Below the pieces are notes generated by a model, which was not told the DNA's origin, ran no database searches, and was given only the letters and a program-made list of their open reading frames with translations. A stretch of DNA of 64,000 nt from Streptacidiphilus carbonis (GTDB lineage: Bacteria > Actinomycetota > Actinomycetes > Streptomycetales > Streptomycetaceae). The stretch spans positions 52,523-116,522 of the forward strand of contig NZ_BBPM01000023.1 in the NCBI RefSeq assembly GCF_000787775.1, read 5' to 3'. Both the position numbers and the translations under genes were made by a program. Positions 45,881 to 53,616 of the stretch are shown here, one piece after another (the first letter of the stretch is position 1; the number at the start of each line of letters is the position of its first letter).

Positions 45881-46921
45881 GTGGAGACTGGTACGTCGGG
45901 CGTCAGCGAGCACGCGGAACTGCTGTACGCCGAGCTGGTCCGCAACGGCGTCGCGGGGCAGGAGCCCGCCCCGTCCGAGGCGCTCGAAGAGCTGCTGGAG
46001 CTGGGACTCGTGAGCAGGCACGCGGAGGGCGGTCTCGTGCTGAACGATCCGGCATCCGTCAGCCTCCAATTGAGCCTACGCCTGTCCTCGGAGGTCAGCA
46101 CGCTGCTGCAGGAGGCCGCAGCAGTACAGCAACGCCTGGCTGACATCAGCGACGAATTCCATGAGGCGCAAAGGGACTCTGCCGGACCGGTGACCTACCT
46201 CCACGGCCTGGAAGTGATCAACGATGCCATCGGGAACGCCGTCGGAAAGATCGAGTTCGAGATGCTCTGCGCCCAACCCCATGGCACGCGCAGCCAGGAG
46301 AACCTGGATCTCTCCTACCGGCGTGACAAGCCTGCCCTGGACCGGGGTGTGACCATCCGTACGATCTACCAGACCAACCAACGGCAGAAGCCGATGATGC
46401 GTGACCACGTCCGGCGCTCAACGAAGGCCGGCGAGCTCGTGCGTACAGTGCCCTGGCCGTTCACTCGAGCCATCATCATCGATCGCAAAGTCGCCTTCAT
46501 GCCGAACACCGGACTCAGCGACGTCTTTCAGGACACGGGGATCCGCAGGGACCCCTACCGTTCAGCACTCTGTGTGAATGATCCGTTGCTCGTTGCACAT
46601 TTCGTCGAGCATTTCGAGTTCTCTTGGGCGCTGGGGCAGCAGTGGGACGGGGCAGTAACCGGAGAGCACGCCGCCCCGCCTCTGGATCAGTGGGAGCGGT
46701 TGATCCTGGAGTACTTGGACCAGGACCTGTCCCTGGAAGCGATCGCAGCACGACTCTCGATCTCCGAACGCACTCTCGGAAAACGCCTTACAGCTCTCAG
46801 GGCCAAGATGGAGGTGAACTCGCTCTACGGCCTCGGCCGCAAGTGGCAGGGGTTGAAGAAGCAGCCCTTCCCTGCTCCGGTACCCGAATCCTCCGAGCTG
46901 AGAGGGAGCGTGCACGAGTGA
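45881..46921 (+). CDS. Sensor-regulator 1: winged helix, PLD-like sensor, LuxR-type HTH
   Basis: 346 residues from the GTG at 45881 (GGGGAGA upstream); an ATG at 45821 is inside a -10-like TAGGAT and less likely. N-terminal helix-turn-helix-like segment (HAELLYAELVRNG to LGLVSRHAEGG, about 10-50), a coiled-coil-like helix, a phospholipase-D-like/TrmB-like sensor domain (about 120-260) with the recurring TRAIIIDRKVAFMP segment, and a C-terminal LuxR-type helix-turn-helix (DLSLEAIAARLSISERTLGK). The sensor should bind a small ligand. It overlaps the next regulator by GTGA. Codon use has more A/T in third positions than flanking core genes. Two paralogues lie within 3 kb. Confidence 0.82.
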   Translation: METGTSGVSEHAELLYAELVRNGVAGQEPAPSEALEELLELGLVSRHAEGGLVLNDPASVSLQLSLRLSSEVSTLLQEAAAVQQRLADISDEFHEAQRDSAGPVTYLHGLEVINDAIGNAVGKIEFEMLCAQPHGTRSQENLDLSYRRDKPALDRGVTIRTIYQTNQRQKPMMRDHVRRSTKAGELVRTVPWPFTRAIIIDRKVAFMPNTGLSDVFQDTGIRRDPYRSALCVNDPLLVAHFVEHFEFSWALGQQWDGAVTGEHAAPPLDQWERLILEYLDQDLSLEAIAARLSISERTLGKRLTALRAKMEVNSLYGLGRKWQGLKKQPFPAPVPESSELRGSVHE

Positions 46922-47970
46922 CTGAGGGTCAGCCGGAGTCCATCCTCGGCGCCGGGGCCGAGGAGTTGTTCTCGCGCTTGCTGGCGCCTTGGCATCCTCT
47001 CCTCACGTCAGAGTTGGAGGCCAGGGCCTCGGACGTGGAAGAACTGTTGGCTTTCGGCCTCACGCGGCGTTCCAATTCGGCCGCTTCGGGGCTGTCACCG
47101 GTGGATCCCGGCATGGTTGCAGCGGAGTTGAGCGGGCGCAACACTGCCACCGCCGAGACTCTGATTCACCAAGCCGCACCTCTACTGACGGCTCTTCAAA
47201 GGCTCACGCGCGAGCATCGTCGCCTCACCAGAGAGCGCGGAGAAGTCCTGTACCTGCACGAGGCGCAATCGATGGAGCAGGCAATCGCCGAGGCTCTCAA
47301 CGGCGTAGGACACGAGATCCTCGCCTGCCTCCCCCAAGGGCCACCAGACATCGCCGCATCCCAGGTAGCCACGGGCGTGCGCACTGCACTGGCAAGGGGG
47401 CTCCCGGTCCGGGCGATCTATCCCAATGTGGCACGCCAACAGGACCATTTGCGCAGTCATATCGAGGCGGTGACCCGGAGAGGCGCGCAAGTCCGTACTG
47501 TCCCCTGGCTGTTCACTCAGGCACTGATCATCGATCGCCACATCGCCTTCCTGCCGGAAGCCGTTGCCTCTCAGGTACCTGACAGGTCAGGGCCGACCGG
47601 CTCGGCAGGACGCCACTTGAAAATCCCCAACCCCAACATCGTGGCTCACTTCGTCGACCACTTTGAGCTGTTGTGGGCCATGGGGCAGCACTGGGACGGG
47701 GCAGCGACGTCCGGCGACCTCCTACCGATCACCCTGGACGACGAGGAGCTGGCGATCCTGCGCTTCCTCGACCAGGGGCTGACCATGGACGCCATCGCGA
47801 ACCGTCTCGGCGTCTCGGAGCGCACGCTGAGCAACCGGCTGGCCCAGCTGAAGGGCAAGTTCAACGTGACCAGTCTGTACGCATTGGGCAGCCGCTGGCA
47901 GGCCCTGCAGGACAGCCAATCCATCCCGGGGCCGCGAGACCCGGGGGCCGCCGACGCCGACGCCGATTGA
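46918..47970 (+). CDS. Sensor-regulator 2: winged helix, PLD-like sensor, LuxR-type HTH
   Basis: 350 residues from the GTG at 46918, overlapping regulator 1 by 4 bp. Same layout as its neighbour: an N-terminal helix-turn-helix-like part, a long helix (ALQRLTREHRRLTRERGEVL), a PLD-like sensor with TQALIIDRHIAFLPE, and a C-terminal helix-turn-helix GLTMDAIANRLGVSERTLSN. Both have HFVDHFELLWAMGQHWDGA or its close match (HFVEHFEFSWALGQQWDGA), so they come from tandem duplication followed by strong divergence elsewhere. A longer reading frame back to 46624 is an artefact. It ends at a strong hairpin (47974-48008). Confidence 0.82.
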   Translation: MTEGQPESILGAGAEELFSRLLAPWHPLLTSELEARASDVEELLAFGLTRRSNSAASGLSPVDPGMVAAELSGRNTATAETLIHQAAPLLTALQRLTREHRRLTRERGEVLYLHEAQSMEQAIAEALNGVGHEILACLPQGPPDIAASQVATGVRTALARGLPVRAIYPNVARQQDHLRSHIEAVTRRGAQVRTVPWLFTQALIIDRHIAFLPEAVASQVPDRSGPTGSAGRHLKIPNPNIVAHFVDHFELLWAMGQHWDGAATSGDLLPITLDDEELAILRFLDQGLTMDAIANRLGVSERTLSNRLAQLKGKFNVTSLYALGSRWQALQDSQSIPGPRDPGAADADAD

Positions 47971-47973
47971 AAG

Positions 47974-48008
47974 CGAGGCGCCGCGACCGGGGGTGACGCG
48001 GCGCCTCG
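47974..48008. terminator. Terminator after regulator 2
   Basis: CGAGGCGCCGCG and CGCGGCGCCTCG form a perfect 12-bp stem with an 11-base loop, 4 bp past the stop codon. It ends the two-regulator transcript. Confidence 0.7.
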
Positions 48009-48060
48009 TACCTGGACCGCCGAGGAGGGTCGGCCCTGGGTGTGACTCGATAATTGCGTA

Positions 48061-48073
48061 CGCCAACTTGGCG
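48061..48073. promoter_or_regulatory. Palindrome in the long gap before the deoxyribosyltransferase-like gene
   Basis: CGCCAA-C-TTGGCG is a perfect 6-1-6 palindrome; TAGCAT (48095-48100) downstream could be a -10 box. The rest of the gap 48009-48375 shows no credible gene: the overlapping frames lack coding bias and motifs. Confidence 0.35.
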
Positions 48074-48375
48074 CGTCCATGCCCTCTGAACGGCTAGCAT
48101 GTGCCAGGCCAACATTTGCCAGTCACCACAGTCACTCCCGCCCCCCGTGACGGCAGGGGCGAGGTCGAGGGCACTGGCGGGGCGGCTGTGGCCATTGCTT
48201 GCCATGCCATCGGTGGCCGGTGGGATTATCTGGACACACGTGCGAGATCCGGGCGAGGATCTGCTCATCCCCCCGAAGGGCCGCCGGCGCCGGCCGCTCT
48301 ACCCAGTCCCACCGACACTCCGACTCGGTACTTCGTACCCGGTCGGGGCTGTCGGCTGTCTCGACGGAGCTGAGC

Positions 48376-48945
48376 ATGAGTGAGTACCTGGTCGAGGACG
48401 GCACAGCCGACAGGACCGCAGCTGTGGAGCCACAGCTCCTGCGGGTTTTTCTGGCCACCCCCTCGCTGCGCCTGACCGGTCCTGCCGACGGCGTCTTCCC
48501 CCTGGCCCTCCGGGCCCGGGTCACCGCCCTGCGCGAGGCGCTGCTGGGCAGCGGCGTGCGGGTGTTCTCCTCGCATCACGACCAGTCCTGGGTCGCCCGC
48601 GGCGCCGCCGAGAGCCCCCGGGTCCCCTCCACGCACCGTGCGGTGATGACCGCCGACGTGGTGGTCGCCTGTGTCGGCTCGCCGTTGTCGTCGGGCGTGG
48701 CCCTCGAACTCGGCTGGGCCTCTGCCATGCGCAAGCCGATCATCCTGCTGGTCGACCGCGCCGTCGAGCACAACCCCCTCGTGGAATCCCTTGAGGAGGT
48801 CTGCCCGGTCTTCCCCCTCGCCTACGACAATTCCTGGTCGGCCACGGCGCTCCAGCAGATCCTCGTCACCGCACTGGACTGGGCGGACAACACCATCTGG
48901 CCGAGCGCCGACGAGATGGGTGCGACTTCCGCTCCGACCAGCTAA
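48376..48945 (+). CDS. Nucleoside 2-deoxyribosyltransferase-like protein
   Basis: 189 residues from the ATG at 48376 (GGAG upstream). The fold signature is that of the NDT family: an FLATP opening (YLAGP-like), LREALLGSGVRVFSS, then ADVVVACVGSPLSSGVALEL with the Asp and Glu that in true enzymes hold and cleave the nucleoside, ending in ASAMRKPIILLVDRA. It may cleave the N-glycosidic bond of a nucleoside or nucleotide, or bind one as a sensor. It lies between paralogous sensor-regulators 2 and 3, so it could make, destroy or sense their ligand; this is inference. Confidence 0.78.
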   Translation: MSEYLVEDGTADRTAAVEPQLLRVFLATPSLRLTGPADGVFPLALRARVTALREALLGSGVRVFSSHHDQSWVARGAAESPRVPSTHRAVMTADVVVACVGSPLSSGVALELGWASAMRKPIILLVDRAVEHNPLVESLEEVCPVFPLAYDNSWSATALQQILVTALDWADNTIWPSADEMGATSAPTS

Positions 48946-49001
48946 GGTCTGGCTTACGCGGCCTGGCACTGGCCGGCAGCGAAGGTTGGGGAGAGCTGGC
49001 G

Positions 49002-49961
49002 GTGGAGCGGCGTGATCTGACGCCCCAGGAAGAGGCGGTCTACGGGCTGGTACTCGAGCAGGGCAAAGTTCCCGTGGCCGAGGTCAAGTCACAGCCGAAC
49101 GGGGAAGAGGCCCTGACGCATCTGATGGCCTTCGGGCTGCTGGCCACCAATCCCCTCTACCCTGATGTTGTCGTCGCGGTTGATCCGGCGCTTGCCGTCG
49201 CCCGCCAGTCATCGCGGGTCCTGGAGGAAATCGCTCGCGACCTGGGATGGGTATCTCGGCTACCCCAGAACACTGCCACGCTTGCCCAGCAGTACTGGAC
49301 GGCCCAAAAGGCGCAGAGCGGTCTGATTGAAGTAGTCAGAGGTGCTCCGGCCATCGGCCAGCGGCTGGAACTGTTGTTGGACAGTTGCCGAACTCGAATG
49401 CTCACGGTCCATCCCGAAGCGAGCCGTAGGGCGCCTGAGATCGAGTCAGTACTGGGGCGCGATCTGGATGTGATCCAACGCGGTGCCGATGTCAGAATCC
49501 TCTATCTGGCCCCGGTGCGACGCCAGGTCGCCGTGCAGGCGTATGTGAAAGCCGTGACCGCCGTCGGGGCCCGGGTACGGACACTTCCGCGCCTGCCGCT
49601 GCGCCAGTTCGTCATCGACAACGTCGTGATCGTCCCTTACCAGGGTGACGTGAGCGCAGCCGTGTTCATTCAGGACCCCTCAACCGTCGCCGCCATGGTC
49701 GAGGTCTTCGAACTGCTGTGGACTCTCGGTGAGGACTTCACGCCACGCACAAGCCGCGAGGAGCAGGTGGAGGAGACACTGCTCACCGTGATGCGCATGC
49801 TGGTCGAAGGGGCCAGCACTCGACAGATCGCGAGAGAGCTTGGACTCAGCGAGCGAATGGTCACGCGTCTTCGTGCAGAGATCAGCGACGAGTACGACAC
49901 CGATTCGGCGGTCCGCCTCGGCTGGCTGCTTCGCGAGCGCTACCCCAATGGAATCAAGTAG
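49002..49961 (+). CDS. Sensor-regulator 3: winged helix, PLD-like sensor, HTH
   Basis: 319 residues from the GTG at 49002, 56 bp after the deoxyribosyltransferase-like gene and preceded by GGGGAGAG. The N-terminus EEAVYGLVLEQGKVPVAEV matches a TrmB-like winged helix (about 8-50). The sensor (about 115-235) contains RTRMLTVHPEASRR and RQFVIDNVVIVPYQGD, and the C-terminal helix-turn-helix reads ASTRQIARELGLSERMVTRL. It is more distant from regulators 1 and 2 than they are from each other. It is convergent with the secreted peptide gene 42 bp downstream. Confidence 0.8.
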   Translation: MERRDLTPQEEAVYGLVLEQGKVPVAEVKSQPNGEEALTHLMAFGLLATNPLYPDVVVAVDPALAVARQSSRVLEEIARDLGWVSRLPQNTATLAQQYWTAQKAQSGLIEVVRGAPAIGQRLELLLDSCRTRMLTVHPEASRRAPEIESVLGRDLDVIQRGADVRILYLAPVRRQVAVQAYVKAVTAVGARVRTLPRLPLRQFVIDNVVIVPYQGDVSAAVFIQDPSTVAAMVEVFELLWTLGEDFTPRTSREEQVEETLLTVMRMLVEGASTRQIARELGLSERMVTRLRAEISDEYDTDSAVRLGWLLRERYPNGIK

Positions 49962-50003
49962 GGCGGCCACCAACTCGCCGCCCCACCGAAGATCTGCGTA
50001 CGT

Positions 50004-50186
50004 CTACTGGGTGAGCCGCCCTGCTTCCGTCGGCCAGGACGAGTCGGCCTGGACGGTGCTGTGGCTCTGCGACTTGACACTTTGCGCGCTCACGCCTGGC
50101 GCAACTACCCCAATCCCAACACCGACGACAGCAGCGCCGACCATGAGTAGTGATGCGACCTTCATCCCAATTCGGCTGCGCTTCAC
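50004..50186 (-). CDS. Small secreted peptide precursor (60 residues)
   Basis: GTG start at 50186 with GAGAGGAG eight bases upstream. A basic N-terminus (MKRSRIGMK), a hydrophobic core (VASLLMVGAAVVGVGIGVV) and a cleavage site after APGVSA make a classical Sec signal peptide. The mature product would be about 26 residues, QSVKSQSHSTVQADSSWPTE plus AGRLTQ, without cysteines. It resembles no known bacteriocin. Lying beside three paralogous sensor-regulators, it is a candidate extracellular signal. An inverted repeat (50227-50245) lies 41 bp upstream. Confidence 0.7.
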   Translation of the reverse strand: MKRSRIGMKVASLLMVGAAVVGVGIGVVAPGVSAQSVKSQSHSTVQADSSWPTEAGRLTQ

Positions 50187-50226
50187 GTGCTTGACTCCTC
50201 TCGGTGGGGCCGAGGGCGCCCCGTCA

Positions 50227-50245
50227 TGTCGGCTCTAATCCGACA
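50227..50245. promoter_or_regulatory. Inverted repeat upstream of the peptide gene
   Basis: TGTCGG (50227-50232) and CCGACA (50240-50245) around a 7-bp centre, 41-59 bp upstream of the peptide start, in the 269-bp divergent gap to the helical protein gene. Spacing suits a dimeric activator or repressor. Confidence 0.4.
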
Positions 50246-50455
50246 ATCATGCCAGTACGCGCACAACGATAGCCCATGATCGCACGCAGCCGATAGGTCC
50301 GAGGAACAGTGACAATTCGGTACAGGGACCGGGTTTCCACTGGTGACTGATGTACCTTCAGCAGTTGCCACTGTGCCACCACGATCCGGGGTTTGCAGCA
50401 AGACTCGGGTACGAAGCTACTTCCCTCACAACCACCGACCGGGGAAGATGGGGAC

Positions 50456-50707
50456 ATGCCAATCGACGCTTCCGAAGCCATCCCGCTGCTGGCGCAGATT
50501 CACACGCGCGCTCGCGAGCAAAAGCAGGAACTCTGGGAGCTCGCGCTTCGCGCGTTCCAGGCCGGCGCGGCACCGGCCAGCATCGCGCGGGTCATGGGGC
50601 TGGGACTGAACGAGGCTGAAATCGGTCATCTGGAGCAGAGCCTTGCTGCCGCCTCCGACGTCGAATCAGGGCAGGGTGAGATTGCCCCCGCCTCGCGGGC
50701 GTCCTGA
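50456..50707 (+). CDS. Small helical protein with HTH-like C-terminus
   Basis: 83 residues from the ATG at 50456 (GGGGAAG upstream). Mostly helical, with AREQKQELWELALRAFQAGA then APASIARVMGLGLNEAEIGHLE, which looks like a short helix-turn-helix. No known family recognised. It is divergent from the peptide gene and followed by a strong terminator and tRNA-Ala. It may belong to the same regulatory locus. Confidence 0.65.
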   Translation: MPIDASEAIPLLAQIHTRAREQKQELWELALRAFQAGAAPASIARVMGLGLNEAEIGHLEQSLAAASDVESGQGEIAPASRAS

Positions 50708-50750: not shown

Positions 50751-50756
50751 CTGCTG

Positions 50757-50829
<73 letters not shown>

Positions 50830-53425: not shown

Positions 53426-53433
53426 AACTGCTG

Positions 53434-53506
<73 letters not shown>

Positions 53507-53543
53507 GTATGACGTTGTCTTGCCGATGCTGCTCTGTACTGCG

Positions 53544-53616
<73 letters not shown>

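Follow-up and report, generated by a model that had tools for sequence, protein, structure and literature searches.

A candidate D-x-x-W peptide signal encoded beside TrmB/PLD-like/LuxR regulators in Streptacidiphilus carbonis and related streptomycetes

Streptomycetes make most natural antibiotics and use gamma-butyrolactones as small-molecule signals; no described Streptomyces peptide-pheromone family with known genes was found in the open-access literature. In the RRNPP systems of Firmicutes (PlcR-PapR, Rap-Phr, Rgg-SHP, PrgX-cCF10), a small Sec-type precursor is encoded beside a cytoplasmic DNA-binding receptor, and the signal lies in a short, usually C-terminal segment. We analysed a stretch of 64,000 nucleotides from Streptacidiphilus carbonis (contig NZ_BBPM01000023.1, positions 52,523 to 116,522; hereafter the window) which contains a locus of similar design. 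It encodes three paralogous regulators (R1, R2 and R3), an enzyme resembling nucleoside deoxyribosyltransferases (NDT), a 60-residue secreted precursor with a D-x-x-W motif (SP60) and a small helical protein (H83). We consider it likely that the locus is a peptide-signal/one-component-receptor unit, in which an exported D-x-x-W signal is perceived by an adjacent sensor; the predicted route of the peptide, as in RRNPP systems, is export, trimming, re-import and binding. The logic of a peptide pheromone with a cytoplasmic receptor is familiar, but neither component is known in such a role. Unlike RRNPP receptors, which are defined by tetratricopeptide repeats (TPR), the regulators combine a TrmB-type winged helix-turn-helix (wHTH), a phospholipase D (PLD)-like domain and a GerE domain; the signal differs in having the D-x-x-W motif, often in several identical copies, and in belonging to streptomycetes and their relatives. 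Judged by sequence, the system would work like RRNPP quorum sensing without being a member of it, its receptor being unrelated.

The neighbourhood of a close NDT homologue was studied in 63 genomes. The NDT gene is flanked by one to eight PLD-LuxR regulators in 62 of them, and a small-ORF scan found in all 62 regulator-bearing loci an open reading frame (ORF) with a signal-peptide-like start and a D-x-x-W motif on the strand opposite NDT. The sole NDT locus without regulators (L171; G068 C72:1-15600) is also without a peptide, as no D-x-x-W secreted ORF was found there in the same scan; it is a natural experiment on what the enzyme does. Under a strict rule, which demanded either a C-terminal D..W or two or more copies, 54/62 loci had a precursor on the strand opposite NDT and 0/62 had one on the NDT strand; of 26 control tiles taken from elsewhere in the window, none had one. 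Neither the precursors nor H83 could be assigned convincingly to a family in searches of Pfam, NCBIfam and PHROGs. The 60-residue gene with a signal peptide and the small helical protein, both predicted by the initial annotation, are conserved in two sister species (G004 and G011). The SP60 orthologues are only 47–55% identical to it and have different tails (ADSSWPTEAGRLTQ, ADSVWGFSPLSVASNQ, ADSGWNQNASLLK), and since they keep the signal region and the DSxW core, the ORF is a real gene.

Examples of the motif among the 62 loci are DSAWT, DVLWT, DYIWT, DISWQ, DIGWT, DLGWT and DSHW. The last Trp lies within two residues of the C-terminus in 46 of the 62 precursors. Because most precursors of the relatives stop 0–2 residues past this Trp, the mature signal is probably a 4–6-mer of the form D-x-x-W-(x). 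Thirty-one precursors contain repeated motifs (2–7 copies), and in 24 of these all copies are identical at both variable positions, a result reached by none of 10,000 permutations. Between loci, both variable residues agree in only 2.4% of pairs, and 45 distinct cores occur. Identical repeats together with differing cores among loci are what would be expected of precursors that serve to release a functional core and whose linkers are discarded. As an analogy only, the yeast alpha-factor precursor likewise repeats identical short cores in one secreted protein; the present system is bacterial and unrelated in sequence, and its receptor is most likely cytoplasmic. The D-x-x-W motif, its repeats in relatives and the location of the locus beside dnaK/hspR elsewhere (see below) go beyond what the initial annotation had described.

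The most repetitive precursors seen carry 10 and 9 DSTW units (L271:2615-2986 and L272:2615-2959). They come from two NDT-free genomes of a genus mostly without NDT. In another family of the order, variant precursor C-termini (repeated FGWD, CTSCWG and ACGACWE) were observed beside related regulators (L196, L198 and L202). The motif may thus be broader than D-x-x-W outside the Streptomycetaceae.

The pairing of regulator and precursor also occurs without NDT. An upstream divergent secreted ORF with Trp in its last six residues is present at 19 of 63 NDT-free regulators, compared with 1 of 198 control genes; if any arrangement within about 1.2–1.5 kb is accepted, a precursor is found at roughly 24 of 59 NDT-free regulator loci. 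Fifteen plasmid regulators were sampled from a protein search, and 11 of them have a secreted D-x-x-W precursor, nine of these being annotated as ‘hypothetical protein’ and divergent from the regulator. Tabulation of homologue neighbourhoods, as proposed in the initial annotation, thus revealed a small secreted peptide beside NDT-linked and many NDT-free regulators, and the three sets together support its suggestion of a locally encoded peptide as the signal read by the sensors.

The initial annotation had also considered that the sensors read a nucleotide handled by the enzyme. By this explanation the regulators respond to a nucleotide or base on which the MilB-like enzyme acts; the secreted peptide, perhaps a small antimicrobial or a peptide of the cell surface, would then be just one product of the regulon. 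The very strong conservation of NDT (95–96% across three species, with the catalytic-type E111 invariant in 64 homologues), its divergent orientation to the precursor gene in most dnaK-linked loci and the established binding of ligands by the PLD-like domains of TrmB relatives would all fit. However, NDT-free pairs of peptide and regulator are common, which leaves nucleotide sensing unsupported as a general rule, and identical short repeats within one precursor are more in line with a signal released by processing than with a peptide of structural or antimicrobial function. We regard nucleotide sensing as unlikely. The presence of an NDT-like gene between R2 and R3 was itself correctly recognized: the protein matches PF05014 above cut-off and is similar (E 6e-15) to the CMP (cytidine monophosphate) N-glycosidases MilB and BlsM along some 130 residues, among them the invariant Glu. 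Unlike MilB and BlsM, it is encoded outside a nucleoside-antibiotic cluster and is linked to regulators and a peptide precursor. Homologues were found in 14/14 Streptacidiphilus genomes and in 93/200 sampled genomes of the family, the weakest of the latter being about 31–36% identical. Because many pairs lack NDT, the enzyme is dispensable for the pairing of peptide and regulator, and it is probably a frequent co-located effector, not a core part.

The plasmid examples include DVGWN in three copies (S. lavendulae pSA3239), DTGWG in three copies beside MbtH and nonribosomal peptide synthetase (NRPS) genes (S. globosus) and DTTWG in three copies (S. janthinus). Three plasmid pairs adjoin an AfsA-like hotdog gene (L236, NZ_CP108444.1), an MbtH/NRPS cluster (L233, NZ_CP030864.1) and a luciferase-like monooxygenase gene (L241, NZ_CP108701.1). 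Such neighbours suggest that plasmid-borne pairs control biosynthetic clusters. They could also be taken to mean that the D-x-x-W peptides are secreted antimicrobial or surface-active products controlled by the adjacent regulators, as could the fact that the precursors are small, secreted and fast-diverging. Yet genes for immunity, transport or modification do not recur in the neighbourhoods that were tabulated, and a core of four or five residues, set in linker sequence that is not conserved, is rather short for an antimicrobial peptide. Identical cores spaced by linkers rich in Ala, Pro, Ser and Thr resemble multi-copy pheromone precursors instead, and we judge an antimicrobial or surface-active role quite improbable. 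Two other plasmid regulators are accompanied by a D-D-E-N-W ORF without signal peptide; L238 was rejected as a precursor-bearing plasmid locus, as its candidate has no signal peptide. No phage or viral versions were found in the GenBank phage set or in an IMG/VR scan.

In 57 of the 63 genomes the NDT locus adjoins dnaK-grpE-dnaJ-hspR, and clpB frequently lies farther out. The arrangement seen most often is hspR, regulator (+), precursor (−), NDT (+) and a tandem regulator array (−). This location raises a third explanation, in which the precursor has its effect at the membrane or before it is exported; it could be an anti-activator, or a sensor of heat shock or secretion stress coupled to the dnaK-hspR operon. 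The same parts, however, sit elsewhere in the window lineage and in three other Streptacidiphilus genomes, and many pairs are on plasmids away from dnaK. We hold this coupling to be very improbable.

The domain structure of the regulators, given in the initial annotation as winged-helix, PLD-like and LuxR-type, could be confirmed. GerE scored above the Pfam cut-off in R1, R2 and R3. A profile of 55 family members, which have a TrmB-type winged helix followed by a PLD-like domain, matched archaeal TrmBL2 (5box) with E 2e-15 over profile positions 2–245, GerE with E 5e-11 and the PLD-fold mitochondrial cardiolipin hydrolase with E 4e-4; PF01978 was matched by 12 of the 55. Winged helix, coiled coil and PLD-like domain thus align with TrmB/TrmBL2 of archaea over 245 positions. 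In contrast to these, the regulators have an additional C-terminal GerE domain and are linked to peptide genes, not to sugar transport or chromatin roles; no sugar genes were among the recurrent neighbours of the NDT loci. Their profiles place the regulators in the TrmB-like wHTH/PLD superfamily, extended by a GerE domain. Profile and Pfam searches revealed only TrmB wHTH, PLD-like and GerE matches and no TPR domain. The GerE DNA-binding domain and suspected signal sensing are shared with the LuxR ‘solos’ and the acyl-homoserine lactone (AHL) receptors; these differ in their sensor, which here is PLD-like, and an autoinducer-binding domain was not found by the domain searches, which gave only HTH/GerE matches, so that the regulators are not AHL-type LuxR proteins. 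The catalytic PLD motif HxKxxxxD is not intact: the family has ...R..I.DR..A..P and no HxK. With the HxK part missing, a sensory role of the PLD-like domain is more likely than an enzymatic one. A model of R2 (AlphaFold2, six sequences; predicted local distance difference test 53.5) was confident only at the two HTH ends, and sequence profiles were therefore used in place of a fold search.

Matches to R2 at E 0.001 or better number 1–16 in other genomes of the genus and family, some of them covering the GerE end only. Regulator array size differs strongly among species, and tandem arrays of 6–8 PLD-LuxR regulators stand beside one NDT and one precursor in L126, L139, L150, L152, L156, L158 and L162. 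The S. carbonis genome has two further family members (G000:C133:102940-103896, L250; G000:C112:12955-13752, L251) with no linked D-x-x-W precursor within 1.5 kb; they are possible orphan receptors.

All six genes are collinear in the two sister species. Identity to the orthologues is 72–75% for R1, 70% for R2, 95–96% for NDT, 67–75% for R3 and 67–72% for H83. Within the window, R1 and R2 are 38–41% identical and R3 and R2 about 25%. Of the duplicated regulators, for which the initial annotation envisaged a layered switch, R1 and R2 are sisters (tree support 0.998) present only in the three-species window lineage, and are a young lineage-specific duplication. With a support of 0.67, R3 clusters with regulators that adjoin NDT in four other Streptacidiphilus genomes; these genomes share the order NDT, regulator, peptide (−) and small H protein. 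From this grouping and the common gene order, NDT-R3-SP60-H83 looks like an inherited unit to which R1-R2 were added, and R3 is the likeliest receptor of the window peptide. An apparent second copy of the locus in G011 (L077, C1:5828000-5839458) was rejected as an assembly artefact: the end of contig C1 is frameshifted and overlaps with the beginning of C3 (L076, C3:1-18000), and the locus is not duplicated.

According to the proposed mechanism, SP60 would leave the cell by the Sec system, as predicted by rule, and be cut down extracellularly to very few residues around D-S-S-W. The peptide would accumulate and re-enter via an oligopeptide permease; since the regulators show no obvious membrane segment in their sequences, it would act intracellularly. 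There it may bind the PLD-like domain of a cytoplasmic regulator, most likely R3, and alter the DNA contact of the TrmB-type wHTH, the GerE domain or both, switching the promoters of SP60/H83, NDT and R1-R2 and other targets. The newer copies R1 and R2 might answer the same peptide or have diverged to eavesdrop.

Several points weigh against a signalling role of the peptide. In SP60 the Trp is 9 residues from the C-terminus, unlike in most relatives. A simple hydrophobicity rule, and not SignalP, served to recognize signal peptides. The criteria for precursors were derived from the very NDT loci to which they were applied, although the plasmid and NDT-free sets are separate from these. By the rules used, no linked precursor is present at more than half of the chromosomal regulators that lack NDT; among them is the only further full-length family member in the S. 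carbonis genome. Once NDT distance is corrected for, divergence of the peptide core follows that of the PLD domain in the nearest regulator (partial Mantel r 0.31, p 5e-4), but the covariation is nearly as strong for wHTH (0.27) and GerE (0.23), with shared descent as an alternative; it is consistent with recognition of the core by the regulator, not decisive. Finally, k-mer and palindrome counts in the precursor/NDT intergenic regions pinned down no shared operator motif. The strongly conserved words AGATGACAC, CGGAGTCGAC and GACGATCA in these regions possibly reflect shared descent, and ACAAGTG upstream of R1 is present in the sister loci too and is not general.

The features of the locus are listed in Table 1. 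The overlap of R1 and R2 likely leads to translational coupling, and the hairpin following R2 is a probable terminator separating R1-R2 from NDT-R3. Proteins of 66 residues at the equivalent place in L112, L113, L120 and L122 resemble H83. The less GC-biased codon use reported in the initial annotation applies to R1–R3, SP60 and H83 (GC content at third codon positions 0.72–0.79, compared with 0.93–0.95 in flanking genes) and less so to NDT (0.88). A 94-residue ORF upstream of NDT (48099-48383) was rejected as a gene: its frame is broken in G004, and the region is conserved leader DNA. Two more tRNA-Ala(GGC) genes on the minus strand (53433-53506 and 53543-53616) form a cluster of three with the one listed. 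The matching stretches of the two sister species yielded only one tRNA-Ala(GGC), which suggests a local duplication in the window.

Table 1. Genes and elements of the window locus (positions in the window).
Feature	Position	Strand	Description	Evidence or remarks
R1	45881..46921	+	TrmB-type wHTH/PLD-like/LuxR(GerE) one-component regulator	GerE 27 bits
R2	46918..47970	+	Regulator of the R1 family	GerE 30 bits; 4-bp overlap with R1
Hairpin 3' of R2	47974..48008	+	Probable terminator	Kept in three species (alignment; visible in sequence)
NDT	48376..48945	+	NDT-like enzyme, MilB/BlsM-type nucleoside-monophosphate N-glycosidase	PF05014 31.5 bits; MilB 4jem E 6e-15
R3	49002..49961	+	Regulator of the R1/R2 family	Downstream of NDT
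SP60	50004..50186	-	60-residue Sec-type precursor, D-x-x-W family	Homologues in G004/G011; points back toward R3
D48-S-S-W51	50034..50045	-	Predicted core of mature signal	Motif in 62/62 NDT/regulator-locus precursors; repeated identically inside precursors elsewhere
35-bp block	50191..50225	-	SP60 5' leader with inverted repeat and ribosome-binding site	Near-identical in three species, flanking DNA diverged
H83	50456..50707	+	Small helical protein with HTH-like segment, 83 residues	Divergent from SP60; 67–72% in orthologous loci
tRNA-Ala(GGC)	50756-50829	-		After H83

Neither curated families nor the open-access literature yielded a description of the system; subscription journals and preprints were outside this scope, so that a prior description is possible. 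In Streptomyces coelicolor, hspR-dnaK presumably corresponds to SCO3668-SCO3671 and clpB to SCO3661, so that SCO3664-SCO3666 would be the same locus. A transposon insertion in SCO3664, described as a ‘regulator’, increased actinorhodin more than 50-fold (PMC6585502); SCO3665 (327 residues) and SCO3666 (394 residues) both belong to the LuxR family (PMC3282765). We count these published results in favour of the signalling explanation. In the same species the oligopeptide permease BldK imports a developmental signal, for which an oligopeptide has been proposed (PMC11303876). That this signal belongs to the D-x-x-W family is speculation.

The chances appear to us evenly balanced that these loci represent a widespread, unrecognized pheromone language of the Streptomycetaceae and relatives, consisting of D-x-x-W tetra- or pentapeptides from single- or multi-copy precursors, species-specific cores and intracellular TrmB/PLD-like/LuxR receptors. 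The combination of TrmB wHTH, PLD-like and LuxR domains would then constitute a new type of peptide sensor; the signal could be predicted from the genes, as each genome spells its own D-x-x-W core beside the receptor. If true, the arrays of up to eight paralogues by dnaK-hspR and the plasmid pairs near biosynthetic genes would form a general signal layer for antibiotic control. The peptides would also be candidates for the oligopeptide signal imported by BldK, and the plasmid-borne pairs beside biosynthetic genes suggest a route to wake silent clusters.

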